Origin: Spinacia oleracea
Lineage: Eukaryota; Streptophyta; Magnoliopsida; Caryophyllales; Amaranthaceae
Length of the DNA: 64,000 bases
NCBI RefSeq assembly: GCF_020520425.1
Contig: NC_079488.1
Span: 11,013,747-11,077,746, forward strand
Direction: 5' to 3'
Below the pieces are notes generated by a model that did not search any database, was not told the DNA's origin, and saw only the letters and a list, made by a program, of their open reading frames with translations. The position numbers were made by a program, and so were the translations under genes. Below, piece after piece: positions 1 to 64,000 of this stretch (its first letter is position 1; each line of letters begins with the position of its first letter).

Positions 1-990
1 CCCAAATCTGGATTGAAACATTTGCAAGCTCGTTCTCAACTCAGGCATTCCTTCAATGAGTGGATGCAATCTGTTCACAGATCAGCTAACAAGGTGAATA
101 ATACTCCATCTAATGTTGATATTGGTACGATTTCCATTCCAATATTGCAACAATTTGAAGAAGTAATGACTGAACATGCTGATAGTGTTGATGATGAATT
201 TAGGCCACCTGATCCAATTGAAATGCATCCTGTTTCTAGCCCTGTACAGATTTACCTTGATGATATACAGGATGAGGTGGATTTTTGGAATTCTTCCATT
301 ATCTACTATATTATTGGTGCTAATCCCCCAATACATGTTATGGAAGGGTTTATTAGGAGAATCTGGAAGAAATTTAATGTTGATAAGGTGGTGTTGGTGA
401 AAAAGGGAATCTACTTAGTGAGATTTCTGACTATGGACATGAGAGACAAAGTCACTTCTGGCCATTTTTTCTTTGAAAGAAAACCTATGGTAGTGAAACC
501 CTGGAGTGTTGATATGGATATGGAGAAGGAAGAGATCAAATCTGTCCCCATCTGGATTCAGTTGAGTCTGAATTTTAAGTATTGGGGTGAAAAATCTCTT
601 TTCAAGATTGTGAGTCAGTTAGGCAAACCAATTAAGAGGGATGCAGCCACTGTGAGTAGGGATAAACTTCAGTATGCTAGGGTGTTGGTTGATATTCCAA
701 TCACACAAAAGCTTCCTAATCAAGTTTCATTTATGAATGAGCATGGTGAGCTGGTTCAGGTACCTATCACCTATGAGTGGAGACCAACTGTTTGTGATAA
801 CTACAAACTAGTTGGACATTCAACCATTGAGTGTAGGAAGGGGAAAACTAAGAGAATATGGGTGCAGAAAAAACAACAAGTTCAGAATCACACAGAAGTG
901 GTGGCACCAGAGGTGGATCAGGAGGGGTTTCAAAGAACTCTCAGGCCAATCAGGGTTAGACCTACCAACTTGGTTCCAACACGTTGTTAA
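1..990 (+). CDS. LINE ORF1 protein, partial at 5' end (DUF4283-like, broken zinc knuckle)
   Basis: The frame is open from the window edge to a TAA at 988-990, with no ATG near the edge, so the start is probably upstream. The middle (about 290-760) reads like the DUF4283 nucleic-acid-binding domain of plant L1 ORF1 proteins, with motifs such as IWIQLSLNFKYW. It is followed by a zinc-knuckle region around 793-840. There the expected C-x2-C-x4-H-x4-C pattern is seen as CDNYKLVGHSTIEC, so the second Cys is Tyr and zinc binding is doubtful. In L1 elements ORF1 protein coats the RNA in the cytoplasm and assists target-primed reverse transcription. ORF2 follows 117 bases downstream in another frame. 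The ORF itself is uninterrupted here, but the ORF2 it would partner is broken. Confidence 0.8.
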   Translation, partial: PKSGLKHLQARSQLRHSFNEWMQSVHRSANKVNNTPSNVDIGTISIPILQQFEEVMTEHADSVDDEFRPPDPIEMHPVSSPVQIYLDDIQDEVDFWNSSIIYYIIGANPPIHVMEGFIRRIWKKFNVDKVVLVKKGIYLVRFLTMDMRDKVTSGHFFFERKPMVVKPWSVDMDMEKEEIKSVPIWIQLSLNFKYWGEKSLFKIVSQLGKPIKRDAATVSRDKLQYARVLVDIPITQKLPNQVSFMNEHGELVQVPITYEWRPTVCDNYKLVGHSTIECRKGKTKRIWVQKKQQVQNHTEVVAPEVDQEGFQRTLRPIRVRPTNLVPTRC

Positions 991-1106
991 TTCTTTCCAA
1001 ATGCTGAATGATGATGGTGGTCATAGTGCTTGCAGTACTGCTGAGTTGGATAGGGAAGATGACATTGAGGAGGGTAGCACAGGAAGAGGGAACTCTTCCA
1101 GATCTT

Positions 1107-4100
1107 ATGGATAGGATATTATCATGGAATGTTAGGGGTATCAACCTAGCTCAGAAACAGGATACTGTGAAGCATTTTCTTCATAAATATCATGTGGGGT
1201 TAGTTGGTCTCCTAGAGCATAAGGTTAAGCTTCCTAACTTAGGGAAGCTTTACCAAAGAGTTTTCCCAAATTGGTGTTTCTCTAGTAATGCAAGTTACCA
1301 TAATGGTGGCAGAATTGTTTTGGCTTGGAATCCAGGAAGCTTTTCTGTGAGTATCCAAGTAGCTTCTAGTCAGTTTATGCATTGCTTCATACAACCAGTG
1401 AGTGGTATGCCTATTTTTTTCTGTACCTTCATTTATGCTTTCAATGATAGCTCTAATAGAGAAGTGTTGTGGAAAGATTTGAAAGCTTTAAACACTCAGG
1501 ATGTCTGGATCTTGTGTGGAGATTTCAATTGTGTTATGAGTAATGATGAGAGAGTTGGCTCCCCTGTTAGGAATGCTGAAATAATGGATATTTGTGATTG
1601 TATGCATTTCTGTAGCATGGAAGATATTAAGAGTGTGGGTAATTTCTATACTTGGAATAATAAACAGCATGGTACAGCTAGAGTTTTTTCTAAAATTGAT
1701 AGAATAATGGCTAATCCTAAGTGGTTAGGTGTTTATAGCTCAGCTGAAGTGTGTTTTATGAATGAGGGTTGTTTTGATCATTCCCCTGGATTGTTGACTG
1801 TCTATCCTAGGGATACAGGGGGGGAAAAAAGCCTTTTAAGTATTTTACAATGTGGAAATCTGCTCCTCATTTTCTGACTCTTATCCAAGAACAATGGAGT
1901 GGTACAGTTCAAGTGAGCAAGATGTTTGGTGTTGTTCACAAACTGAAGAAGGTGAAGTTGGTGCTCAAAGAGTTGAATAGAAAGGGATTCTCTGATGTTC
2001 AAGCTGCTGATCTTCAAGCATACCATGACATGATTGCAGCTCAGACATCAATACATCTTGATCCTGCTGATCAGAGTCTCGCTGATGCAGAACTCAGTGC
2101 AGTGCAAAATTACAAAAATAAACATCAAGCTTATTTAGAGTTTTTGAAACAGAAGGCAAAGGCTTCATGGATTAGGGATGGTGATGAAAATACCTCCCTC
2201 TTCCATCAGAGTATCAAAGCTAGGAATAATCATAACCAAGTTTACATCATTCATGGCATGGATGGGATTTGGAGAGATAATCCTGCTGATATCTCTCAAG
2301 CTTTCTTGGATTATTACACAACTTTGTTCGGTAATACTCACACTAATAGAAGACCTGTTCTTAGTCATATTGTCCAAGCTGGTCCCTTGATTACAGATGC
2401 TCATAGAGATATTCTAAATGCTCCATATACAGCTGGTGAGGTGAAGAAAGCTTTGTTCTCTATTCCTGGTAGGAAAGCACCAGCGCCTGATGGGTATGGA
2501 TCCTACTTCTATAAAGATGCTTGGAACATTGTTGGTGATGATGTTATCAATGCTGTTCTGGATGTTCTCCAACAAGGCAGATTTCTTAAGGAGTTAAATC
2601 ATACAGTCATTACTCTCATTCCTAAGACTAAGTGTCCAAAGAATGTGAGTGAATTCAGACCTATATCCTGTTGTAATACTCTGTATAAATGCATTACTAA
2701 GGTGATTTGTAGTAGATTGAGGCAAGTATTATCAGATTTGATCATTGAGAATCAAGGGGGGTTTGTACATGGCAGATACATAGTGCATAATATCATGGTG
2801 GTTCAGGATTTGGTAAAACAGTATGGTAGGAAGAGTGCTAAACCAAGTTGTATGATGAAGATTGATCTTTAAAAAGCATATGACACAGTTGATTGGGATT
2901 TCCTGCAAGAAATGTTGGTACAGCTGGGTTTTCCTGGAGCTTTTGTGGCTCTTGTGATGGAGTGTGTGACCACCCCTAGGTTCTCTCTGATGCTTAATGG
3001 CACAATGCATGGATTTTTCAAGTCAAAAAGGGGTTTAAGACAAGGTGATCCCATGTCTCCCCTTCTGTTTGTGATCTTCATGGAATACCTGTCCAGAATT
3101 CTCTACAAAATGAGTGAGTTGTCTCAATTTCAGTTTCATCCTAGATGCAAAGAACTTAAGCTCACTCATCTATGCTTTGCTGATGATCTAATCCTATGTA
3201 GTAAAGGTGAGTTCCCCTCTGTGTATCTTCTGCTTCAAGCTTTTAAGCTGTTCTCCAATTCTTCTGGTTTGTTAGCCAACAAGTAGAAGTCAACTATCTA
3301 CTGCTGTGGTATGGCCGAGAATGAAATCAACAGAATTGTCAATGTTTCTGGTTTTACTAGGAGTCAGCTTCCTTTTAAGTACTTAGGTGTTCCCATCTGT
3401 GCTAAAAGAATTTCTGCTGCTCAATGTGATGTCTTAGTGGATAAGATGGTTGCTAGGATTAAAGTCCGGAGTTCAAGGAATCTTTCCTACACAGCAAGAA
3501 TGCAACTCATTAATTCTATGTTGATGAGTATTCATATGTACTGGGCTCAGGTATTTATTTTACCCAAGAAATTTCTGCAGGAAGTTACTAAAGTTTGTAG
3601 AGCATTTCTCTGGAGTGGGCAAGCTTACAGTCAGAAAAACAGTAACATTTCTTGGGAAAGTTCATGTTGTGATAAGAAGCAAGGTGGACTTGGATTTAGA
3701 GATGTTGTCAGATGGAATATTGCTAGCATTGGAAAATATGTTTGGGACATTGCTTCCAAGCAGGATAATGTTTGGATCAAATGGGTTCATGCTGTGTACA
3801 TTAAGGATGGGGATTGGTGGGAGTATAAACCTGTAGCTTCTGCTAGCTGGTATTGGAAGAAGATATGTGCCATAAAAGAGAGATTGAAACTAGTTTATAC
3901 TCAAACTGAGTTAGCTGCTATGCCTCATTATTCTGTGAAAACAGTTTATGAGAAAATCATTGGACCAAAACCTGTGATTCAGTGGGATAATATGGTGTGG
4001 AATAGGCTGAATATCCCTAAGAATAGATTCATATGTTGGTTGGCAGTGCAGGACAGGCTTCAAACCACTGCAAAATTGGCAAGATTTGGTGTTAGTAATA

Positions 4101-4481
4101 CTGCAAGTTTCCTGATTTGTGGACAAGCTGATGAAGATCATAAGCATCTATTCTTTGCTTGTCCCTATAGCAGCAGATGCATTAGTGCTCTCAAAACTTG
4201 GTTAGGGATTACTTATTCCACTGGTAATCTGAAGCAGCTCATGAGGTGCATTGCTCATGGCAGAATGTCAAAGTTTAGAAGGCAAGTTAGCTAGCTTTGC
4301 AATGCTAGCTGCTGCAGTGTATGCTGTTTGGTCAAGTAGGAATGGTTGTTTTTGGAATGCTTCCTTTCCAACTGTTCAGAATATGGTAGCTAGAGTTAAG
4401 AAAAATGTTAGAGATCGAATTTTGGTTGTTTTACCTAAACATGTATCTAGGAGAGATAGCTCGTGGTTTGCTACTCTGTAA
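1107..4481 (+). pseudogene. LINE ORF2 (endonuclease, reverse transcriptase, zf-RVT), multiply broken
   Basis: The ORF starts at ATG 1107 with MDRILSWNVRGIN, the usual beginning of the APE-type endonuclease domain; GDFN (about 1519-1530), SKIDRI and the FDHSP motif follow. The frame shifts near the G7A6 run at 1818-1830, and the coding continues in frame 2 with the plant LINE linker WIRDGDENTSLFHQS and RT motifs, including the catalytic FADD at 3176-3187. The frame is stopped by TAA at 2870-2872 (in DL*KAYD) and TAG at 3284-3286. The zf-RVT region (about 3980-4170) ends with [10 protein letters not shown] second frameshift near 4250-4294 moves the last 60 or so codons to another frame, ending at 4481. 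The intact protein would nick DNA and copy the LINE RNA at the nick; this copy cannot be translated as one product. Confidence 0.9.
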
Positions 4482-4621
4482 GATAGTTTTCTGTTTCTAG
4501 CTCTTTGATGGAATGGTCCAACCTAGTTGGTTTGTTTCATCCTTGAGTTAGTTTAGGTTGTAATCTGTTTTGAGCTTAATATTATTCGATCTTGCTTGCC
4601 TAGCAAAAAAAAAAAAAAAAA

Positions 4622-37958: not shown

Positions 37959-38411
37959 TTACCTTCGGATTTTTGTCCTTCGGATTTTTACCTTCGGCTC
38001 GGTTTTGTCCTTCGTATTTTTACCTTCGGCTCGGTTTTATCCTTCGGATTTTTTCCTTCGGCTCGGTTTTGTCCTTCGGATTTTTACCTTCGGTTCGGTT
38101 TTATCCTTCGGATTTTTACCTTCGGCTCGGTTTTATCCTTCGGATTTTTACCTTCGGCTCGGTTTTGTCCTTCGGATTTTTACATTCGGCTCGGTTTTGT
38201 CCTTCGGATTTTTACCTTCGGCTCGGTTTTATCCTTCGGATTTTTACCTTCGGATTTTTACCTTCGTCTCGGATTTATCCTTCGGATTTTTACCTTCGGC
38301 TCGGTTTTATCCTTCGGATTTTTACCTTCGGATTTTTACCTTCGTCTCGGATTTATCCTTCGGATTTTTACCTTCGGCTCGGTTTTATCCTTCGGATTTT
38401 TACCTTCGGAT
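37959..38411. repeat. 32-bp tandem repeat array A
   Basis: Unit based on CTTCGGCTCGGTTTTATC and CTTCGGATTTTTAC, about 32 bp with 14-bp sub-units. The long ORFs across it are an effect of the repeat, not genes. Confidence 0.93.
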
Positions 38412-39615
38412 CGATTCGAGTTGTAATCTTTGAGCGATTTTTAACCTCGTTCTTCAAATCCGGAGATCTGTTTAAGAACGTGCTTCTAAAATCGGGTCGG
38501 ATTGTAACATCAGTTCGAGTTGTAATCTCGGAGCGGCTTTTTACCTTCGGCTCGGATTGTAACATCGATTCGAGTTGTAATCTTTGAGCGATTTTTAACC
38601 TCGTTCTTCAAATCCGGAGATCTGTTTAAGAACGTGCTTCTAAAATCGGCTCGGATTGTAACATCGGTTCGAGTTGTAATCTCGGAGCGGCTTTTTACCT
38701 TCGGCTCGGATTGTAACATCGATTCGAGTTGTAATCTTTGAGCGATTTTTAACCTCGTTCTTCAAATCCGGAGATCTGTTTAAGAACGTGCTTCTAAAAT
38801 CGGCTCGGATGGTAACATCGGTTCGAGTTGTAATCTCGGAGCGGCTTTTTACCTTCGGCTCGGATTGTAACATCGATTCGAGTTGTAATCTTTGAGCGAT
38901 TTTTAACCTTGTTCTTCAAATCCGGAGATCTGTTTAAGAACGTGCTTCTAAAATCGGCTCGGATTGTAACATCGGTTCGAGTTGTAATCTCGGAGCGGCT
39001 TTTTACCTTCGGCTCGGATTGTAACATCGATTCGAGTTGTAATCTTTGAGTGATTTTTAACCTCGCTCTTCAAATCCGGAGATCTGTTTAAGAACGTGCT
39101 TCTAAAATCGGCTCGGATTGTAACATCGGTTCGAGTTGTAATCTCGGAGCGGCTTTTTACCTTCGGCTCGGATTGTAACATCGATTCGAGTTGTAATCTT
39201 TGAGCGATTTTTAACCTCGTTCTTCAAATCCGGAGATCTGTTTAAGAACGTGCTTCTAAAATCGGCTCGGATTGTAACATCGGTTCGAGTTGTAATCTCG
39301 GAGCGGTTTCTTTACCTCGGCTCGGATTGTAACGTCGATTCGAGTTGTAATCTCGGAGCGATTTTTAACCTCGTTCTTCAAATCCGGAGATCTGTTCAAG
39401 AACGTGCTTCTAAAATCGGCTCGGATTGTAACATCGGTTCGAGTTGTAATCTCGGAGCGATTTCTTTACTTCGGCTCGGATTGTAACGTCGATTCGAGTT
39501 GTAATCTCGGAGCGATTTTTAACCTCGCTCTTCAAATCCGAAGATCTGTTCAAGAACGTGCTTCTAAAATCGGCTCGGATTGTAACATCGGTTCGAGTTG
39601 TAATCTCGGAGCGGC
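38412..39615. repeat. 154-bp tandem repeat array B
   Basis: About seven to eight copies with a constant 154-base spacing (for example 38640, 38794, 38948), each holding TTCGAGTTGTAATCTCGGAG and AAATCCGGAGATCTGTT. Later copies (after 39250) vary in one sub-segment. Confidence 0.93.
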
Positions 39616-39838
39616 TTTTTACCTTCGGTTCGGTTTTATCCTTCGGATTTTTACCTTCGGCTCGGTTTTATCCTTCGGATTTTTACCTTCGGATTTTTAC
39701 CTTCGGCTCGGATTTATCCTTCGGATTTTTACCTTCGGCTCGGTTTTATCCTTCGGATTTTTACCTTCGGATCGGTTTTATCCTTCGGATTTTTACCTTC
39801 GGCTCGGTTTTATCCTTCGGATTTTTACCTTCGGAAGT
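39616..39838. repeat. 32-bp tandem repeat array C
   Basis: Same unit as array A, resuming after the 154-bp array. Confidence 0.9.
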
Positions 39839-40262
39839 GATGTAGTGCCATCATGCCAATGTATGCTGTTGTTACCAATCGTGCAAGGTGATTGTGGGCT
39901 CAGTTGAGTCTGAGTTGTGGAAACTTGCTTTATTTCCAAATTCATAACTTTCACGCGTGAGCTGTTACTGGCTCCAAAAATCTGTACTCAAGCAAAATGA
40001 ATCCTCTTTATTCTGAAAATGAGTTTGCAGATCTGGGAGAGTGGGAAAGCATCTTTACTTGGCCTTGAGGCTACTGGGCCACCAAAATGTAGTAACGATC
40101 TGTAGCAACAATTTGTAGCAACATTATTTGTCACCACACTACCCATTATAACGTAATTTGTTGACAAACAGTAATTTTTGGTCGGCTATTTCAGATTTCC
40201 GGCCATTTTTGCGGTTGAACATAATAGTATGAAAATGTGGATTTTCATGGGTTATTGCTCTC

Positions 40263-45950: not shown

Positions 45951-46483
45951 TAAGTCTCGGGATGACACGATGGTCAAAGTACTGGACGGAGTGCGTCACA
46001 CAAGCCATAGTGTATGTGACTTGTTTTGCGAGGGTCTCACGAGCCCCCGAGTGATAACATTTGACTTAAGGGTCATCACTTGAAGTGTTGACATATCCCT
46101 CACGTGTCATTGGGATTTGTCAACGGACAGTATAGAAACTCCCTCACTTTGTCATTGGAAGTATCTAAAGATGTGTAGAAACTCCCTCACTTTGTCATTG
46201 GAAGTAGCTACAGATGTTTTCGAAATCAAAGCTATAAAGTGTAACTGGGCCTGGCCAAGCCCAATCACGAGGTAAAATGTTTTTAAAGATTCTCATTTTC
46301 AGGGTTAGCTAAACGAGAAAACCCCCTTGTTTTTATGGGACGTGAAACGAAGGAAAATCCGGCACATCGTTCTTTTTTGGAAAAACGGAAAACCAATCCT
46401 TTAATTTTTGGAAAAAGGGAAAACCGATCCTTTAATTTTTGGAAAAAGGGAAAACCGAAAAAGTTATCGCTGCAGCGACTAAA

Positions 46484-46980
46484 GACCTGCGCGGTTAGTG
46501 GCGCAGACCCCGCCGGCTAAAGATGGCGAGCCTGTCCGCTAAGGGTGGATACCCCGTCCGTTAGAAGTGGACGAATCTATTTTGAAATTTGTTTTTTTTT
46601 ATTTTTTGAAAATAAGGACCTACGCGGTTTGTGACGTAGACCCCGCCGGCTAAAGATGGCGAGCCTGTCCGCTAAGGGTGGACGCCCCGTCCGATAGAAG
46701 TGGACGAATCTGTTTTGAAGTTTGTTTGTTTTTTTTGAAGATAAGGACCTACGCGGTTTGTGACGTAGACCCCGCCGGCTGAAGATGGCGAGCCTGTTTT
46801 TTTGTTTTGAAGATTTTTTTTTCGAAAACTGAGGACCTGCGCGGTTAGTGACGCAGACCCCGCCCGCTGAAGGTGGGCGAGCCCTGTCCGCTGAGGGTGG
46901 ACGTCCCTGAATTCATTTTTTCGATTTGGAACTCGCGTGGTTTGTGGCGCGATCTTGCCCGATTGAGGTGGGCAAGTTCC
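46484..46980. repeat. Tandem repeats of about 100-130 bp inside the Ogre/Tat-like element
   Basis: Four or five imperfect units, each with GACCTGCGCGGTTAGTG, GACCCCGCCGGCTAAAG and GTCCGCTAAGGGTGGA. Length differences come from T-rich spacers. Confidence 0.85.
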
Positions 46981-49900
46981 TATTTCTTTTGTTCATCGTG
47001 ATTTCTTTTGAGAATTTCTTTTCTTATTCATTCTCGCAGGAGCGAATTCTTTCAAGTGATGCTCGGATTTAGTTGCAACCTGAATGTGGGTTGACAACGG
47101 GCTTAGATAGACCCTTGTCTTGTGGTCATCTTCTTTTGTGGTTTTGAGCTAGTCTTTATGGCTCGATTTTTCCACCACTTGGTCTTTGATCAGAGGACCA
47201 TGTACAAGTATCAACGGCGACCTTTATTCTGAGGTCGAAATCCGTTTTTTTCTTTGAGGTTATCCAAACATGGGACTGTGTATAGCGTAGTCCGCGAATA
47301 TGATTTTAACTTTGCACACTCTTCGTTGGAGTATATATTTTCTTTCGAGCCCCCAAGCACTCGTGCTTGATGGTCATTTCTTGTCAAAGAGATTCCTTGG
47401 GGATACGCATTTCGTAATGTTCTCGATCGTATTTGGGATCGTGCTCGTAAGTGCGAGTGATCTTTGCAGTGGTGTGCTACTCTTAACAAAGCCGTGAGGT
47501 GCAACTTTCAGTAAAGAAATCGGCAATTTTCGGGTCGAATGGATACGGCAGGACCCTATAAAAATCCGGGGCCTTTTTTGGGTCTGGGATCATTTTCGGC
47601 GCCCGTGCCTGGGCGTTAAAGATTTCGGCGCCCAGCTCTGGGCGCTGAAAATGATTTCTGGCGAGGTTTCTTGATGACACAGTTGGCCTCTTGTTCGTTC
47701 GTTCGTTTACTTCACATGGAAATTCTACGTATTCTCTTCTGTTTTGTTTTTTTCTTTATTTTGTGGAACGTAGAATTTTATTAGAGATTACAATGAGTTG
47801 AGTGATCGTGATGATTTCTCGAAAAGCCGTAGCCGATTGGTGGACTACGGTGTTTGTCGCTTTGGGGCGATTATTTAAAGGAACTGTCGCTCTTTAAGGT
47901 GTACAGTTATTGCAATAGTTGGGCGAGTCTATTTGGCCCGAGGAACATACCTTGAGGCGTAAGACTTTGATCGCTCTTGTATATATTTTTTTTTGAATGC
48001 GTTCGTGAATGAAGATATGTATGTGCGAACGAGCGTTCATAGAATGGCCGTTGTGTGCGGTCCATTAATCAGTTCGCTTGAATCATTTTTTTTTTGAGCA
48101 ATGACTGATTTTAAATAGTTTGCTTAGAAGCTTGATAGGGTTCAGGCCCATTCATGAAGTGGGCTCAAGCATCGTGCCCTTTCAATCGTTCAAACATTTG
48201 CTTCGAGAATTTTATTTTGCTATGGTCGTTTCGTAGCTTGGAGCCCCCAAGTATGCATGTTGGGATGCTTCTTTTTGGCGTACGATTTTTGTAGGTTCTT
48301 TCGAGAAAGATGCCTAGGGGTTCCGCTCGTGTAGGTGCGAGTTATCCCTGCCGTGGTAGGTAATATTTTGCTACCTTTAATCCTTAATGTAGAAGTCGTG
48401 TGGCTTGCATTTGGGCGATAAGTAGTCTTTGCCTCTTACTCTTGGTCGTGCCCGCATTAGTGCCATATGCCTTTCTCTCTTTTTTTTAGACTTGTACTGT
48501 GGGATGGTTGAACTTATGGTGCAACGTAGGCTTGTGTGGCCTAACAGCGTGTCTTAGAACATTCCTCCAGGTTTTGGGATATCATTATTATTTTTTGCAT
48601 TGGAGTACTTCATCATGCCTTGTTCAGGTGCTCGAACAAGTGTAGCACCTCCTGCGTGGGTGTGCACGGCTTATTACTTCGTTCGATGCGAGGATTCATA
48701 GATGTTTCTTTCTTGTTTTTTTACGTGGGAAAATTTGGCAAGCCGAGAGAATCAGCGCCCGGGCTGGGGCGTTAAAGATATCGGCGCCCAGCTCTGGGCG
48801 TTGAAAATGTTTTTTGGGCAGAATTTGACAGTTTTTTTATCCTTGATTTTTCTTTTGCTTTTGCTTTGGAACGACGTAGACTGTGTAACGGGTGCTTGTA
48901 GGGCGAGCGTTATGTGCAGTAGTTTGATCGGAGTTTTGGTGACTCGCGATTTTCAGTTACCCTTGTTAGTGGGGTGACTTTATATATTCTAAGTAGTGCT
49001 TAGAATTTGGGAGGGGTTGTAGCCATTCTAAGGTTCGTTTTACACGATCAAACCTTAGGATTGTGCCCCTATGATGTATGTATAGCATTAGCGTCGAGAA
49101 TTTGCGATAAAATTGTCATTTCGAGCATTTTTAGAGTGTTTTTTCTCAAGCCCCCAATTGTAGCTACGGGATTGGCTTGGTGCTATAATGCTTGGCATAC
49201 GTTTTTATGCGTTCATGGTGACATGAATCATAAATAGTTTGAACCAGACTCGTTTAATGCGAGGTACGTTCGGGTAGTGATTTGCTACTTCTCTTGTGAA
49301 TGTCGTATTGTGCGACATTGCCATGGTCAAGGTAGTCACATGTTGAAGTGTGCCTTGACCAAAGATTAGGTGCCTTTCTTTACCCATAATCATATTTAGA
49401 AATATCTTTGACTCACTTGCAACATCGAGATAAACGCATACTTAGATTAAACCAACGACACTTTATTATGTTCGAAGAAGTCTTTGAAAATTATTTGAAA
49501 TCCGAGTCCTACTGTGTACAATCCGAGGTGTCCTAAGTAAGTTGACTTATAGAAGGGTTCGTACAAGATTACATGAGTGAATCAAAATACTGTTACGATT
49601 TTTGGAATGCCGTCTAAGGATTTGCTGGGAGCCAGGGTGCAGGCGTCAAGATATTACTTGTGCCCGTGTGGCACATGCTTTGGGCTTTTAGGGCCATCTT
49701 TCCAGAATTGCGGGAATATAAACCGTTTTCAAATTGACTTAGATTTACTTGGTGTATGTCTGCACAAAAGGTCAAGGTATACTTAGTTCCTTCCTTAGCT
49801 CTTTCATTTCAATTTTTAGCCCCCAATTGCTATTATGTCTTCTCATTAATGATGCTTTCAGATTTCGATTTTAGATGCCCGTGTCATATGTCTGAGTAGG

Positions 49901-52900
49901 TTGAGCCTTGGTTAAGTGCCAGGTCCTATTGACAATGTCTGATTTTTTCAAAGGGAATTCGCAAGCATTCGAATTACCATGAACGGGTGCCCTGAGTTCG
50001 AAGGAACGATGGGGCGATGCCGTAGAACAATCCTCTTTATTGCAAGCTTACTGCCTTTACTACTTGTTGGAGATTATGACTGTGTCTAGTGGTGAAAGAA
50101 GGTCTTTAAGCAAACGACTATGTCTGATGGTGAAAGAAGGTCTTTAAGTGAGTTAGTTCGCTTTAGGGAGGGTCAAGTCGCGTACTTTAGAGGTCATGGA
50201 CGCTTGCGCTAGCCCCCATTCAATTGAGGCAAAGCGATCTTTTGAGTCTTGGCTAAGTGCCTAGGAGTGTGAGTGCTCCTTCTGGCAAGGGTACGTGCCC
50301 TTATTATTTTTTGATGTGTGCTCATTTTGGCATCTTGATGACTTGGATTCTTCTTTTGACTTAAATTTTTCTTTCGACTTGGATTGCAAGTAATTAAATT
50401 TCAATAAGGGACTCTATTTTTTATTCTTGTCATTCTATAGGTTTTAACATTTTTGCAAATTGGTTGGACCGAATCATGGATTGCCTACGTATCCGCCTTA
50501 AATAGATTTAATTTGGAATCAGGTCTTGCGTAGTTCTTAGCCAGAAAATGGTTTCTTAGAATGCCGATTTTAAACAAGTACGTTCGAGTGGAATCGTAAT
50601 GTTTGAAATAGGGTGAAGTAAGTGAAGTTTATTATTATTTGAATCTGCCTCTTTGCCGTAAGCCAAAATTTTGTTTTATTTTTTAAGTACATGTATTTGC
50701 ACAAAAATCTTTTCATGTGTTTTTTGGTACGTATATCTTTTCATGTGTTTTTTTTGGTACGTATATCTGAATACGTGTTGTACCCCTCCAAGTGTTCGTT
50801 ATTTTTCCGTGCATGTGCGGATAAAATGACGAGCACTTCTGGACAAAATTTGGCAAGCAGAGAGATTCAGCGCCCAGGCTGGGGCGTTAAAGATTTCGGC
50901 GCCCAGCCCTGGGCGCTGAAAATGATTTCTGGGCGGATCTTTTTTTGGTGCGCTAAATGCTTCTTTTTTAGACGAACTTTAAAGGTGCTTTGCAAAGTTT
51001 TTTTTTGTTATTATTAATTTTTTACGTTAAGCGTATAATGTACTTTTCATTTTTCCTTTTTTTTATTCGTGAATCAAGACGGCTTGAAAGATGGGTTGAA
51101 TGAGATGGGATAATTTGTGTAGGTATTGGTCAAGCATGAGGATTACATCTGCTAGGACTCACAATTTGCAGCCTCAAGCTATTGTCATGAGTTTACATCA
51201 ACCAAGGCCAATGAGTAGCATGGGGACGGCTCAAGGGTATATCGACAGGATGTATCCAAACAAGTTATATGGTCATTTATGCTAATGGTGGTGTAAGAGC
51301 AGGTTTGGGCTTTGGAAATAATGGGTATGACGCACGTGTCAATGGCCGTACGTGGTTTGCAGTTGATAACAAGTTCAAGAACAAGAGTCGAGGTAATGGT
51401 TTCTTGGGTTATGGCAATGAGAACATGGATTGGTTAAATGAGCTGAACAGGGGCCCCAAAGCGAAGGTGTCTAAGAACATAAGGATTGGAAAGGGTAGAC
51501 ATCGCAGAACTTTATGTAGTTTTTGTGGCATGATTTGGATTGGTTGACTCAATTCTTTTCCTTCGTTTACTTGGGTAAATTTCGCACTTTGGGAGGTACG
51601 GGCTAAGTATTTCATGGATCGCTCTTTTCGCTCTCCCTTTTCTCTTTCTATTTTTTTTTTTTTATTGCACTTTGGGAGGTACGGGCTAAGTATTTCATGG
51701 TTCGCTCTCTTCGCTCTCCCTTTTCTCTTTCTATTTTCTCTTTTTGCTTGGGGTTTCTCCCCAACATAAATCCTTCAAAAAAATTTATTTGGGCTAAAAG
51801 GTAGATGGTTGTGGTCTTTGAGTCACGAGGCGAGACTGAGTGAGCCTCGTTTAGTAGGCCTATAGTGGACCTTTCACTTTAGTAGGCCTAGGGTGGACCT
51901 TTAGCTTTAGTAGGCCTAGGGTGGACCTTTAAATTGTCTTACTTTGCAAGTGTATTTAGTCGTTCGTGCAAATAGCGTAGATTCAAAATGTTGTTTTTAC
52001 TTTATTGAAATTTAACGAAAGAATTACATCGAAAATAATTTTTGTTTCTTTTCAGACTCCAGTTTCTGGGATTTAATTGGAAGTTGTGATTTAGACTCGA
52101 ACTTTCATTAATCTTTCTGATTATAACCCGTGTATGAATACAAGGAGGTGGCCTAGACTCAAAATAATGACGTGGCGTAAGCCTATAATACTTGACCAAG
52201 CAACTTTCAGACTTAGGCTAATTGGACCATAATTTTCGTTGGTTGACACTTTAGATTTTAACCCTTGGGTGTTCATTTGTCATGCGCCATTTTGCTTAAT
52301 ATTGGCAAGGTAGTTAGTCGGGGAGATCGAATTTTCATTTTTGCAAGACTAGAATCATTATTGCGGCTTCCCTCTTAGTGTGTATTGCTTTACCCCGATG
52401 GTAGCCTTATGGCATGCCGATTTGGGTATTTTCATGGTTCGTCATGTTGCATTCATGGAAAATCTTTTAGTCCGTACTTAGGAGTATTTAAAGGAGCGAA
52501 TGGCTCGAGAGGACTATGATAGTCGTGACCCAATGTGATCATAAGCCTTGAGGCCATTAATTTTTGCTAATGGTATTGACACCTTAGGTTCACTTTGGGG
52601 GTTGTGCCACTATGGGGGAATGATTTTCAGAATGTGACTGTTTCCATTTTGCAAATACTTGAATTACATAATATATTCTTTTTATTGGTGAGAGAGAGTA
52701 TTGAGGCCGTAGATTCTTAGCAAGGGATGACAATTACATATGGGTGCTTATTGATTTAAATGTTAGGAAGGGAGACTCAATATGGTTTAATCTTTTAACT
52801 TGCAGAACGACACCAAGCATTAGGACCGATTCTACGGATAAGACAACTAAGACTTAGGATTTAGATTGTACTTTAGCATAGCCTAGTCTAGACTCGGATT

Positions 52901-54041
52901 TTTTATTTTTTATTCGAACATTATTTTTCCTTGAAGACTCGATTTGAACATTATTTTTTGAATACCTTGCCCATGTGACATTCAAGGTCATTTAATTAGC
53001 ATGCTCGGTTTTGGTGCCGAACATTGTCGTCATAGGAGGCCTAATGACAACACAAAGAGTTGTTTATTTTATAAGTCGTTCTTAGAATTGAGTGCCTTTT
53101 CATACGCCCTTGCAGCAATTTTCGCGAATTTTCTTTTACTGCTACGTATTTTTTTTATGCGCGGGAACCGAGGTTGCTGTGCCTGACCAAAAGGCCATGC
53201 AGCAACTTCAACGCCCAGCGGTGGGCGTGAGAATATTTGGCGCCCAGCCAGGGGCGCTGAAAATGCGTCCCTGACTGGTACTCGTATTCTGTTCGCGTAT
53301 ATTTTTTTGTATATGCGACTTAATTTTGCGTGCTTGCCTAATAACGTCCTTTACGCGTTATGCAGCGTTGTAGGATTCGTTACGGGGCCTCCTGAGCGTC
53401 GCTTATTTTTGTGGTGATCGTTCGGGGTTGCGGAACACGTATCTTGGTATAACTCTTTGGCCAATTGGTTTATGAATGTTTGGGCAATTTTTAAGGTCGT
53501 TGGTTTTCTAGCATTATATGTCACACACAATCACATAATTCGCTACACATAACTAACATTACACCATGAGGAAAAATAATAATATGTCATGTAGTTTATG
53601 ATAGGCTTCTATGGGTAGTATTTGCGCCGGCTTGGCACCGCTTCTATCGCAGATCCAACACATGCCCCGGTCGAGGTAGTGCCTTCAACAGACGAATTTC
53701 GCCCAAGAGGCCAATCACGATGTAAGCCAAGGGGGCATGCACCAATGAGAGGGACCTAGTGGGCGAGTGATTGGGTTTGGGACGGGTGTACTACTAGCGA
53801 AAAGTGCCGAGTGGATAACATTCGAAGCGTATGCACCCCCCGGTTGGCGATGGGTATCCTTAGTCCCAACTCCCGAGATGAAACATCTCAAATGAGCCAA
53901 GATTTGTTATGCGGTTCTGTCCGTTCACATTAATATGCTGATTTTCAGGTCGTCCCAACTTGATGGGGAAATAAACGCGGGGTAGGATCGTTTCACCCTT
54001 CGGCTATTTTGATTACCAACGAGCACGAGTATTTCCTTCAC
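46981..54041 (-). other. Non-coding interior of the Ogre/Tat-like element
   Basis: 7 kb with no ORF that looks like a protein domain on either strand. It includes dispersed hairpin modules at 47591, 48750, 50865 and 53205, AGCCCCCAA words at 47346, 48241, 49148, 49817 and 50211, a 79-bp direct repeat (51588, 51667) and three copies of AGTAGGCCTA(G/T)(A/G)GTGGACC near 51855-51930. Confidence 0.8.

Positions 54042-59778: not shown

Positions 59779-59819
<41 letters not shown>
59779..59819. repeat. (ATT)n microsatellite
   Basis: About 13 ATT units, downstream of the RT stop codon. Confidence 0.95.
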
Positions 59820-59820
<1 letters not shown>

Positions 59821-59977
59821 ACGTTACAAGCTTAACAAGCTATAAAGATCAAGTGAACTACAAGAAGTTGGAGGGGAGCCGAGATACAATCTGGGCCCCC
59901 ACTCCTCTAGCTATGGCGAACCCGATCCTGCTGAAAATGTGGGCAGCTGCCCGTGCCCCAATATCCTGAGCCCTGGA

Positions 59978-62884
59978 TTACGCCTGAACCCGCTTCAGCA
60001 AAGAAACAGCCCCTTTCTCTAATTCCCCAAAAGAAGAGAAGGAAAAAGGAAAGAAACCGTAACCCAAAGCCCTACAACGTGCCGCATACTTATCCTGCTT
60101 CCGCTGAGCTGCAACCGCCACAACCCGACCCGGAATGAAGCCTGACAACCCAGATTGCGTCATAGGGGAAGACCCAGTCAAGTCAACACACACATCTAGA
60201 CCGCCATCCCATGAGTAAAGCAATATATCTGCAGGACGAAGAGCTCCATCGCTCTCACTAGTCAGCCCAACATCAACCTCCTTGCGAGCAGAAATCCCCG
60301 ACCGATAGCAAATATCCAAAAGGGTATCACGAACAACATTATGACGATGTTTGATACCCACAATCCCAGCACGAGACACGGCATGATCCCCATAAATGTC
60401 CCCGTCGAAAACCCGAGAGCAAGCAGAGCACGGCGTCGAATCAGAGAACAACGGAATACCCAACCGATAGCAAAGAACCGAACGATAAGTCTTACCGTTC
60501 ATAGTCTGGCCTAACCCCGAGATGGGGACTGCCCGCAACCAAGCTGAGGAGTGATCCCCCTGCTGAGATTTCCATAGGGCAACAAGACGTGAAGATAAGG
60601 AGTAGGCGGATTCCGCATCAGCAATAACCTTCGTGAAATATATGTCTGCCAATTTCTTCATGAGTCTGGGGGCAGCGATCTCACTAGGGCTACGCATAAG
60701 GTCGGTCTCCACGGTCCTGTTGAAAAGACCAAGAGCATCATCAAAGGCCGGTCCCGGACCTTCAACACCTGAAAGCCGAAGAAGCGAATCCTGCAAACCA
60801 GAAGACTGCAAACGGGATGCAAGAAAAGCATAATGCCGAACATCACCAGCTGAATAAACACCCAATCCTCCATAAGAATAAGGCAAGGTGGCAAGGCGCC
60901 ATTGCCAGTCACCGAACCCAGGTCCCGAAGCAACCACGATGCGCTCTAAAGAAGCCCGCAGAGCCACATCAAAAGATAATTGGGCCGCTTCGAAAAGATG
61001 AGGCGGACAAGTGCGCATAGCAAAGTAGAGTTTAGAAACTCCAGTACACGCACGAAGAAGCAACAACTCACACTGGGGATCATTAAGCTTGGCTACAGCA
61101 TCCATCAACACAACAGTCTTCGACACACGCTGCGAAACAACCTCCTTACAAAAAGAAGAATCCGTACTGACTGGGCCACCAAGCAACTTAACACCAAGCT
61201 CAGGACGAGCAATATCCGTAGGAAAGACACCCTCTAGACGACAGCGTGGATCCTCCGAAGGCCAGAAAACCTCCGTCTTCCCAACATTAACATGGAGACC
61301 TAAACGAGGCCCCTCCTCCAAAATCAACTCCAAGACCTGCCCAACCACCAAAGTGTCACCAACAATAGTGCCATCGTCCAAGTACCATGCCTGAAGAGAT
61401 AGATCAAATGAGTCTCGAATTCGACACACCAATGGATGTAGAACCAGAGAAAAAAGCAAAGGGCCGAGAGGATCCCCTTGCTGCACACCCTGACAAGACC
61501 ACAAGGTATGCTCCCCATAATACAGCCGCGCTGGAGAAGAGTAGCAGAATTCAACCCAACGCGAAAGAGCAGGACAATGGAGCCGAACCTCACGCAACAA
61601 AGCCGATCGATCAACTAAATTGAAAGCATTCTGAAAATCCACCAATAACATAGATAGGCCAACATCGGCCCCACGAGCCTCAACCAACCGATTGACAGCA
61701 TGGAGAATGGCCTCACCACCTGCTGGAACCCCAACACCAAACTGCAGACCTCCAAAGTAGTTTCCTAAACGCGGACCAATCAAAGCAGCCCCGACCTTAG
61801 AAACAAGGCGCCTCCAAATAGTACCCACCGCAATAGGCCGAACACCCCCACCAGGCTTAACCAATGGCGTAAGAGGAGCACTAGCAATGTATCCTCCAAG
61901 CTCAGCGGGACACTTCCCAGCAAGAAAGAGATTAACTACCTGAGTGATAGCATCCACCAACTCATCAGAAACAGCTACAGCAGCACCACCCAAGCAATCC
62001 AAAAGGTGCTGAGCACGCAAGCCATCTCTACCGCACGAAGTACCACGCGGAAAGCCCATAATCTGCTCCACAACAACAACGGAGGAAGCAGAAAGGTGAT
62101 GATCAACAGGGTTATCCGGTAAGGTAGGGACCGGAACGGAAGGGTGCTTTGCTTGTAAATCTGCAAGAGTAGCATCATCGTAAGGGGCAAGACCTGAGGA
62201 AGAAAGAACCCTAACGGCAGCAGTGTAGTGACCGTCAGAAATCTTTCTCTTGCATTGCTTAATATTACGCTCCGCCAAATCATGGTCATCGTCAACATCC
62301 AATAGAGAGGGAGACACGCTAGCCAATGTGTCTATGACAAGTTGCTCAGAACCGCCAGGCACACCCCAAGAACGAATAGCAGAGGTGATACACTCCTCCT
62401 GTTGCCGCCGCCTAACACCGGAGGAACACTCACGATTACTTCGTGGAGAAAAAGTCTTGAGGACACAAAGAGGTAACACGAGCAACTGAACCCAACAAGC
62501 GATGTCATCTGGTCTGCAAATCACCTTATCAAGCGCCCCTTTCAGAACTCGCGAAAAACCCAAACGACATTTGGGAGGGATGGATTTCACAGAACGCAAC
62601 CGCTTAGACCATAAAGTGTCCAGAAGAGCAACATCAAAAGAAAAATATTGTTCTCGAGGCGCATCAGAAGTAGACAGCTCGGAAGCAGGAGCTTGAGGTT
62701 TTTGAATACCGTAGAGAGTAAAACGAATAGTACCATCCCCAGAATTAGGTGGGTCCACAAAAACCGTACTAGAACCACTGCCATGCCGACACCTAATACG
62801 ATGAGTATGCGTCTTGAAACAATCTCCACATAACCAAATTCCCATACGACGAAAGGTAACCTCAGCCGAAGTAAAAACCTGCAA
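59978..62884 (-). CDS. Reverse transcriptase with CCHC-like finger and restriction-like endonuclease-type C-terminus
   Basis: An open frame of 968 codons (first sense codon TTG; no ATG fits the true start, see the neighbouring exon). A Cys/His cluster (C19-x2-C22-x3-H26, C32, H34) comes first. The RT has SCGRDGLRAQHLL, RPIAVGTIWRRLVSK, VDFQNAFN (Asp416), GVQQGDPLGPLLF and YLDD at 61373-61384 (Asp503, Asp504), so the catalytic triad looks intact. Near the end C819-x2-C822-x11-H834 resembles the CCHC finger of R2-type elements, with Arg838 where the fourth ligand might be. A KHRHNVVRD stretch and R-P-A-D886 with D901 fit a PD-(D/E)xK nuclease, but the usual Lys is Thr903. Such proteins nick a DNA target and copy RNA onto it. 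It could also be a domesticated gene. Lineage placement is inference from motif order. Confidence 0.75.
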   Translation of the reverse strand: MQVFTSAEVTFRRMGIWLCGDCFKTHTHRIRCRHGSGSSTVFVDPPNSGDGTIRFTLYGIQKPQAPASELSTSDAPREQYFSFDVALLDTLWSKRLRSVKSIPPKCRLGFSRVLKGALDKVICRPDDIACWVQLLVLPLCVLKTFSPRSNRECSSGVRRRQQEECITSAIRSWGVPGGSEQLVIDTLASVSPSLLDVDDDHDLAERNIKQCKRKISDGHYTAAVRVLSSSGLAPYDDATLADLQAKHPSVPVPTLPDNPVDHHLSASSVVVVEQIMGFPRGTSCGRDGLRAQHLLDCLGGAAVAVSDELVDAITQVVNLFLAGKCPAELGGYIASAPLTPLVKPGGGVRPIAVGTIWRRLVSKVGAALIGPRLGNYFGGLQFGVGVPAGGEAILHAVNRLVEARGADVGLSMLLVDFQNAFNLVDRSALLREVRLHCPALSRWVEFCYSSPARLYYGEHTLWSCQGVQQGDPLGPLLFSLVLHPLVCRIRDSFDLSLQAWYLDDGTIVGDTLVVGQVLELILEEGPRLGLHVNVGKTEVFWPSEDPRCRLEGVFPTDIARPELGVKLLGGPVSTDSSFCKEVVSQRVSKTVVLMDAVAKLNDPQCELLLLRACTGVSKLYFAMRTCPPHLFEAAQLSFDVALRASLERIVVASGPGFGDWQWRLATLPYSYGGLGVYSAGDVRHYAFLASRLQSSGLQDSLLRLSGVEGPGPAFDDALGLFNRTVETDLMRSPSEIAAPRLMKKLADIYFTKVIADAESAYSLSSRLVALWKSQQGDHSSAWLRAVPISGLGQTMNGKTYRSVLCYRLGIPLFSDSTPCSACSRVFDGDIYGDHAVSRAGIVGIKHRHNVVRDTLLDICYRSGISARKEVDVGLTSESDGALRPADILLYSWDGGLDVCVDLTGSSPMTQSGLSGFIPGRVVAVAAQRKQDKYAARCRALGYGFFPFSFSSFGELEKGAVSLLKRVQA

Positions 62885-62899
62885 ATTGGTAGTTAGTGA

Positions 62900-63049
62900 C
62901 TAACGGGTTACATCCCGCACATCAGAGCAACAATGACGATCCCGTAAGTGAGTGATCAGAGAACTCCTTACCAAACCACGCCCACCGCCATCCTGGCACC
63001 CGCTAAGACCCACAAAAGGGCAATGAAACTTCTCCACGGAAGCCTCCAT
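62900..63049 (-). CDS. N-terminal C2H2 zinc-finger segment of the same reverse transcriptase, ended by an in-frame TAG
   Basis: ATG at 63049 opens 49 codons with CPF...C...LITHLRDRHC, a C2H2 zinc-finger pattern, ending at TAG 62900-62902. It is in the same reading frame as the 968-codon ORF, only 15 bases upstream of its first TTG. A strong splice donor (TTG|GTAAGG at 62972/62971) and an acceptor with branch-like CTAAC (TTTGCAG|GTT at 62879/62878) would remove 93 bases including the TAG and join the frames in phase 0, though this also removes the second half of the finger. Alternatives are a nonsense mutation or readthrough. N-terminal fingers in R2-type proteins bind the DNA target. Confidence 0.55.
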   Translation of the reverse strand: MEASVEKFHCPFVGLSGCQDGGGRGLVRSSLITHLRDRHCCSDVRDVTR

Positions 63050-63059
63050 ATCAAAGCAC

Positions 63060-63843
63060 TTCAACAGCACCACCAACACCAAACGCACACTTGATAACCT
63101 CAACACACACGCAAACAATAACAACACCAAAGAGCAACAACTCAAGCTGCCCAAACTCCAAACTCCAAGACAAACACCAAACTCCAAGACAAACACCAAT
63201 CTCCAAAACAAACGCACAACAACAATGCAATAATCTGACCAAATCACCAATCACCAAACGCACAACAACAATGCAATATTCTGACCAAATCACCAAACTC
63301 CAAGACAAACACCAATCTCCAAGACAAACACCAATCACCAAACTGGACGTACGAACTTGAAATCACTGAACTGAACCCCGAACAGGAACTGAAATTACGA
63401 ACTGAACCAACCTGATCAGAACCTGAACTGCCAAACTGAACGCAAACTGAACACCAAACTGAACACCAAATTACGAACACCAAACTGAACGCAAGAACCT
63501 GAAACGAACTCCCGAACTGCCAGGAACCGGAAAAGACCACGCAACACTGCCGGAAACCGCGCCGTAACTGCCTGAAGACTGCCCCGAAATCCCGACGCCT
63601 GAAAAGCCCCCGCAAACCGCCTGAAAACTGCTTCAAAACCGCCTGAGAACTTCCTGAATACGACGCCAAAATCGCCAGAAAATTGCACCTAAACTACCGC
63701 TTGAATCCGCCGAAACCGCCTGAAACCGCCACCTGAAACCGCCTCGAAATGCCGCTCGGAATCACCTTCAACGGCCGTATAATTCACCGGAATATGGGAG
63801 CTGCCCTAATCTCCATAATCGCCATAATTTGAGAGAAGAAGCG
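63060..63843 (-). promoter_or_regulatory. Leader region upstream of the reverse transcriptase ORF
   Basis: On the minus strand a G/T-rich stretch follows a CTTCTTCTCTC pyrimidine patch. It has degenerate repeats of CAGGCGGTTTT (63580-63740) and TTGGTGTTTGTCTTGGAGTT (63140-63340). No conserved protein is encoded; the ORFs on it are repeat translations. It may hold an untranslated leader and internal promoter, by analogy with non-LTR elements. Confidence 0.4.
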
Positions 63844-64000
63844 ATTATTATTATTAATATTATTATTATTATTATTATTATGGGATATAATTTTATAAAG
63901 GTAAAATCGACTTTTCATATAAAAAACGCGGGCGATATTAGCGTATGCGGGCGTCGAATAGCGATACACTAATTTTATACTAAAAATTATACTTCTCGTA

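Follow-up and report, generated by a model that had tools for sequence, protein, structure and literature searches.

The window analysed here is a stretch of 64,000 nucleotides from spinach (Spinacia oleracea; NC_079488.1, positions 11,013,747 to 11,077,746 of the forward strand). At positions 59978-63049 of this window, on the minus strand, lies a damaged copy of a young, multi-copy retrotransposon of the type that lacks long terminal repeats (non-LTR). An open frame of 968 codons starts at a TTG codon at 62884 and runs to 59978, and the longer frame that starts at the ATG at 63049 is interrupted by a single in-frame stop, at codon 50. The copy is further damaged in that the last Cys of its zinc knuckle is changed to Arg and an early stop leaves the C-terminus 40 codons short. 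The frame is not a product of chance, since its protein matches the reverse transcriptase (RT) family RVT_1 with an E value of 3.2e-13 and recurs at 47 places of the genome with 96-100% protein identity. The features of the copy are collected in Table 1.

Table 1. Features of the retrotransposon copy, in positions of the window (ORF, open reading frame).
Feature	Positions	Strand	Basis
Non-LTR element body of about 4.0 kb, with its 5' end near 63843 and its 3' end near 59820	59820..63843	-	alignment with 20 other copies and flanking repeats
Target microsatellite, (ATT)n on the plus strand, i.e. (AAT)n on the element sense strand, directly upstream of the 5' end	63844..63881	.	
Tail, (ATT)n on the plus strand, i.e. 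(TAA)n on the sense strand, immediately past the 3' end	59779..59819	.	
5' untranslated region with internal tandem repeats; end motif CTCTCAA..GGCGATTA	63050..63843	-	
Damaged ORF (family ORF, 1063-1065 codons) with the open 968-codon stretch 59978-62884	59978..63049	-	
In-frame stop at codon 50 of the window copy	62900..62902	-	
Zinc motif 1, C-x7-C-x15-H-x4-H	62933..63022	-	motif level; ligands kept in older-subfamily rows
Zinc motif 2, C-x2-C-x3-H-x5-C-x-H	62783..62830	-	conservation in the older subfamily; H83 not conserved
RT core (RVT_1) with D471 and Y-L-D-D	61262..61858	-	Pfam E value 3.2e-13; best PDB matches are two R2 chains
Zinc knuckle C-x2-C-x11-H-x3-C, last Cys replaced by Arg in the window copy	60371..60430	-	sequence and conservation in older rows
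Putative restriction-like endonuclease region: KHRHN, E924, PAD941, D956, K984-x2-K987-Y988	60020..60352	-	motif test, conservation, published KX2KY

To survey the family, 894,210,420 bases of the genome in 242 contigs were searched with the 968-residue protein. The 47 places, which include the window, were those scored among 2748 first-look candidates; the stretch is free of stops in 40 of them, and copies are present on all six large sequences (C1-C6, 115-189 Mb). A preliminary description of the locus had called for a copy count in this and related genomes; the 47 are scored places in this genome. Twenty of the 46 other places were fetched with 3.5-kb flanks for the comparison of copies. 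An ORF of 1063-1065 codons is found in 18 of these 20 (L024 and L027 are broken), and that of L015 ends in residues unlike those of the other copies. Among 17 ORFs of equal length (136 pairs; L015 was left out for its length, L024 and L027 as broken), the mean synonymous divergence (dS) is 0.034 and the mean nonsynonymous divergence (dN) 0.0092, giving a ratio of 0.27, and the closest pairs differ by a dS of only about 0.001-0.004. These values indicate purifying selection on the protein and a recent origin of the copies. The family is young and under purifying selection, so that the recent activity or selection proposed earlier from the near-intact frame applies to the family and not to the damaged copy in the window. 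An older subfamily, often broken, is 65-81% identical to the young family in aligned stretches, which indicates a longer residence in the genome. A 21-base motif of the 3' end has 446 exact occurrences in the genome, with none for the reversed control. The near-identical ORFs of copies L009 to L028 are combined with several distinct 5' untranslated regions, many of which have the short end motif CTCTCAA..GGCGATTA in common, as if 5' regions had been exchanged among copies of the family.

Residues are numbered here after the intact copy L012, and conservation is counted over those rows of the older subfamily that have a residue at the given position. The ORF of L012 contains, in this order, zinc motif 1, zinc motif 2, the RT, the zinc knuckle, KHRHN (900-904), E924, PAD941, D956, and K984-x2-K987-Y988. 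The ligands of zinc motif 1 (C10, C18, H34, and H39) are kept in every older row (6-7 rows), and those of zinc motif 2 (C74, C77, H81, C87, and H89) in 7/7 rows each; H83 of zinc motif 2 is not conserved across these rows. D471 and YLDD (556-559) of the RT are present in 10/11 and 11/11 rows, respectively, and the knuckle residues C874, C877, H889, and C893 in 9/9, 9/9, 8/9, and 9/10. All motifs named in the preliminary description (a C2H2-type finger, D416, YLDD, C-x2-C-x11-H, KHRHN, and PAD...D) were recovered in the frame of the window copy. Compared with Pfam at E values up to 10, the 1063-residue ORF matched RVT_1 only, with no match to an apurinic/apyrimidinic endonuclease (APE) or a zinc-finger family. 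One long ORF per element, as found in the 18 unbroken fetched copies, corresponds to the single multifunctional ORF of long interspersed nuclear elements (LINEs) that carry a restriction-like endonuclease (RLE).

The window protein and a family profile were compared with the PDB. The best matches of the window protein are two R2 chains (E values of 9.5e-6 and 1.2e-5), followed by a third R2 chain at 0.00076; the Bombyx R2 scored 0.0074 and 0.036, and the chains of L1 type 0.27-0.88. With a profile of 34 family rows, the best R2 chain reached 1.9e-6 and the L1-type chains 0.0011-0.0033. Judged by these scores, R2 leads the PDB matches of the element RT by a modest margin.

The region downstream of the knuckle carries the ordered residues of an RLE. 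In RLE LINEs, the catalytic Lys is reported to open the KX2KY motif of the second helix, and an RH at the start of the nuclease to matter for binding and cleavage (PMC5678591). The family has K984-x2-K987-Y988, so that the Lys, described earlier as lacking, is present at its LINE-specific place (about 60086-60100 in the window copy). E924, D941, K984, K987, and Y988 are found in 11/11 older rows and D956 in 10/11; K900, H901, and N904 in 10/10, R902 in 8/10, and H903 in 9/10. The Asp residues of PAD and D956 are largely conserved among these homologs. The signature RHN-x15-28-E-x8-20-P-x0-1-D-x10-18-D-x12-32-K-x2-[KRH]-Y is present in the query and in all three R2 chains, but did not arise in any of 200,000 shuffled versions of the query; when H alone was required instead of RHN, it arose in 4 of 200,000. 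This test is generous to a nuclease, since its ranges were set after both R2 and the query had been viewed. Seven of ten family rows have the signature. Motif and context make it likely that the C-terminus is a restriction-like nuclease.

Almost all copies are embedded in TAA repeats. With the window counted, the 3' end carries at least 5 consecutive TAA units in 20 of 21 copies (the run of L025 is interrupted), and in 19 of 21 the 5' end is directly preceded by at least 4 such units on the same strand. The two exceptions upstream are L010, which has an (AAATAAT)-type repeat, and L016, which is 5'-truncated and adjoins (TTA)n, that is, the opposite strand. A set independent of the ORF was obtained with an internal motif of the 5' end, which has 57 genomic occurrences (none for the reversed control); the 57 ends are motif occurrences, in which possible segmental duplicates are not collapsed. 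(AAT)4 lies at most 12 bases upstream of 43 of these 57 ends (distinct sites, overlapping rows merged by hand). Among the remaining 14, the run of L009 is somewhat farther off, and 11 of the 13 others, whose loci were fetched, have farther-off or interrupted TAA runs; no TAA run was found upstream of the motif-defined 5' end in L045 and L048. In total, 55 of 57 motif-defined 5' ends are preceded by (TAA)n in the same orientation. One run of at least 4 units, on either strand, is present in positions 1-59000 of the window, so that the chance expectation is far below one. Runs of TTCAG/TTCAA-like pentamers were seen in the left flanks of L023, L045, and L049, with a TAA repeat following in L023 and L049 and none in L045; these flanks are possibly a compound satellite.

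The flanks also record what the copies were inserted into. The 20 fetched loci contain 11 matches to other copies, in 8 loci, all oriented like the main copy (L013 and L017 overlap one tandem pair, and a twelfth match, to the own 5' region of L024, is not counted). L013, L020, L022, and L027 follow the tail of another copy, and the tail of L024 holds the start of another element. A single host repeat (72-83% identity), whose start lies no more than about 50 bases from the TAA run, forms the right flank of L013, L021, and L025, and the left flanks of L017 and L025 have another stretch in common with 78% identity. In 16 loci, the 40-base stretches on the outer sides of the two TAA runs share no string longer than 8 bases, so that no outer target-site duplication is seen. 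These observations argue strongly that insertion is specific for (TAA)n.

The family is very probably an autonomous, single-ORF non-LTR retrotransposon of the RLE type that uses target-primed reverse transcription to insert into (TAA)n microsatellites. Direct support comes from the ORF layout, the youth of the copies, the purifying selection, the equally oriented (TAA)n flanking the element at either end, the co-oriented nests, and the absence of a visible target-site duplication beyond the repeat. According to the proposed mechanism, the N-terminal zinc motifs would bind (TAA)n and the C-terminal nuclease would nick the TTA strand, whose released (TTA)n 3' end could pair with the (UAA)n at the end of the element RNA and prime cDNA synthesis by the RT. 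In second-strand joining, the 5' end of the element would be joined to the upstream TAA repeat. Every new tail would in turn offer a target, and the head-to-tail nests could have arisen in this way.

Several results weigh against this interpretation. As for the nuclease, the AlphaFold model of residues 794-1063 has a mean predicted local distance difference test score (pLDDT) of 34.9 and offers no usable fold. An hhalign comparison with the R2 nuclease gave a probability of 0.2% over 17 columns, out of register; in a second run the stretch from RHN to KY was in register, with 28% over 72 columns, yet the probability was 0.4%, and 22 of 200 column shuffles reached the same score. With the full-length profile, the alignment to the R2 nuclease fell on a different part (10 columns, 687-696). 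The family alignment behind these profile comparisons is shallow (effective number of sequences, 1.2), too shallow for a fair test. No PDB match was obtained for the C-terminal 247 residues at E values up to 10. Three of the ten family rows fail the signature (L034, L038, and one of two rows of L020), all through changes in RHN, and the other L020 row passes only through a different Asp, its D956 being Val. The family knuckle, CX2CX11HX3C, departs from the CX2-3CX7-8HX4C reported for RLE LINEs (PMC5678591), though it stands at the expected place; a knuckle pattern spaced much as in R2 missed the query as well as two of three R2 segments. No HDV-like (hepatitis delta virus-like) ribozyme was detected in 8 loci at the Rfam gathering threshold or in the weak hits that two 5' ends gave at E values up to 10, a class of ribozymes that can escape Rfam models. 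The same 8 loci with their flanks had no Rfam match of any kind at that threshold, rRNA and ribozymes included.

The RT itself is hard to place. The references comprised R2, L1, and one APE LINE, with group II RTs in the first tree only and R4, NeSL, CRE, HERO, and RTE in neither. The family RT sits on a long branch of 2-3 changes per column, which carries a warning of long-branch attraction. In the tree with group II, it falls outside R2, L1, and APE with support of 70/87, and the approximately unbiased test gives p values (p-AU) of 0.237 for union with R2 and 0.07 for union with L1. In the tree without group II, it groups with R2 at 64/53, with p-AU of 0.386 for L1, 0.216 for plant L1 alone, and 0.337 for the APE LINE. 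As far as these alignments go, the RT trees reject no placement, union with L1 included. In the PDB search, moreover, group II RTs (0.0025-0.024) score on a par with R2 of Bombyx and ahead of L1.

The proposal of an RLE-type LINE in a plant, made in the preliminary description, is upheld by the ORF layout, the signature, RVT_1 as the only Pfam match, and the strict target, and receives no backing from the RT tree, the fold prediction, or the profile comparison. The RT trees built here gave no well-supported placement in an RLE clade and none inside L1, and the structure and profile checks yielded no significant match to R2 and no unrelated fold either.

An alternative holds that the nuclease is not sequence-specific and that the preference for TAA arises as the (UAA)n tail of the RNA anneals to any nicked or frayed TTA repeat. 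Because the 3' ends are (TAA)n, annealing of the tail alone would favour TTA primers, and the lack of a demonstrated fold or significant hhalign match leaves room for such an enzyme. An annealing bias alone would probably not produce an association with TAA as strict as that of 55 of 57 5' ends, and the older subfamily retains most of the signature residues; neither point is decisive, and we regard an unspecific nuclease as unlikely.

The family may also be considered a member of R4/Dong or another animal RLE clade that reached the plant lineage by horizontal transfer. Its (TAA)n target is the same as that of Dong from Bombyx, and most target-specific LINE families are described as narrowly distributed (PMC4640811). 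The very long RT branch, which separates the family from every reference in the trees, and the older, often broken subfamily, which argues for long residence, make such an arrival rather improbable. As a further possibility, the family may form an undescribed flowering-plant clade of RLE LINEs that is active at present, specific for (TAA)n, and deeply diverged in its RT, and would thereby extend the ancient branch of target-specific LINEs to the angiosperms; in our estimate, this is an evenly balanced proposition.

It is very unlikely that the C-terminus is no nuclease and that the element derives from L1, RTE, or another RT lineage by loss of the APE. Such a descent would agree with the p-AU for union with L1 and with the missing fold match, whereas Pfam detects RVT_1 only, R2 scores above L1 in the PDB searches, and the ordered RHN-E-PxD-D-KX2KY lies in an ORF under purifying selection and is largely kept in the older subfamily. 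Random insertion of an element that itself carries (TAA)n at both ends, where most copies indeed have TAA runs, is highly improbable and was set aside on the flank evidence: no duplication of more than 8 bases was seen outside the TAA runs in the loci compared, and copies stand beside the tails of other family members as well as at the TAA run of a common host repeat.

Further sequences were noted elsewhere in the genome and in other collections. At G000:C2:6151586-6156955, five same-strand matches to a fragment of the element RT are spaced by about 1180 bases and read as a tandem array derived from part of a LINE. RVT_1 matches, four each on one strand with a spacing of about 4980-4990 bases, occur at G000:C2:24616807-24632239 and G000:C1:32858395-32873843, a pattern expected of an LTR-type element repeated in tandem. 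No relatives of the family were found in the collections viral_contigs and genome_contigs, which cover viruses, bacteria, and archaea and no plants. An R2-based search returned nothing from viral_contigs and only one APE-type LINE from genome_contigs. This LINE (L041:4447-7401), of animal character as read from its translation, lies in a contig of the metagenome-assembled genome (MAG) of a Sulfurimonas endosymbiont from a snail, and is presumably host DNA in the MAG bin. Sequences similar to the C-terminus of the element presumably also occur in unnamed proteins of other dicots, for example of Asteraceae. Within the window, the L1-type LINE at 1-4621 is broken, with two stops in its RT frame between 2702 and 3400, and the AT skew is strongly negative, down to -0.345, at 38001-40000 and 46001-54000.

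Among known systems, Dong of the R4 clade from Bombyx mori is close in target. Its (TAA)n target is described as that of the rDNA spacer (PMC2887409), and its 5' junction follows TAA repeats, where the Dong RNA cleaves itself (PMC3774820). By analogy of target, the spinach family is Dong-like: as in Dong, a LINE related to R2, the target is (TAA)n and TAA repeats stand directly before the 5' end. Unlike the insect element with its rDNA-spacer (TAA)n, the spinach copies are spread over all six large sequences, and no self-cleaving RNA of the Dong kind was detected in the loci searched. DongAg and DongBg are also found in microsatellites, and several HERO elements lack a specific site (PMC3636483); some HERO families are said to target microsatellites (PMC4640811). 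Utopia/NeSL and HERO, compared here by description only, are likewise of the RLE type and often target-specific. Utopia, reported from Amoebozoa, SAR, and Opisthokonta, targets U2 small nuclear RNA genes and NeSL spliced-leader genes, whereas the spinach family targets (TAA)n.

Plant LINEs were summarized in a 2022 review as L1 and RTE only, with reference to a survey of 23 genomes (PMC9033089), and no RLE LINE of a flowering plant was found in the part of the open-licence literature covered, which excludes Repbase. The L1 LINEs of plants, such as that in the window, have the non-LTR RT core in common with the spinach family; they carry an APE-type endonuclease and two ORFs, in contrast to one long ORF with no APE in Pfam. 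If our interpretation is correct, a recently active RLE LINE with a microsatellite target would add a major class of retrotransposons to the angiosperms and raise the question of descent versus transfer.

The layout of the family resembles that of R2 in its N-terminal zinc finger, RT, CCHC zinc finger, and RLE motifs, and RHN, E, PD, D, and K-x2-K/H-Y recur in the R2 chains of Bombyx, Taeniopygia, and others in the PDB. The similarity of the RT to R2 is low even in the best match cited above, the spacing differs (14 versus 12 residues from PxD to D, and 27 versus 16-18 from D to K), and so does that of the knuckle. R2 targets 28S rDNA, whereas the inspected flanks of the spinach element are TAA repeats beside other sequences. 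R2 is under study for gene insertion (PMC12222951), and the spinach family, if correctly interpreted, would offer a plant-adapted sequence-targeting enzyme to study alongside it.

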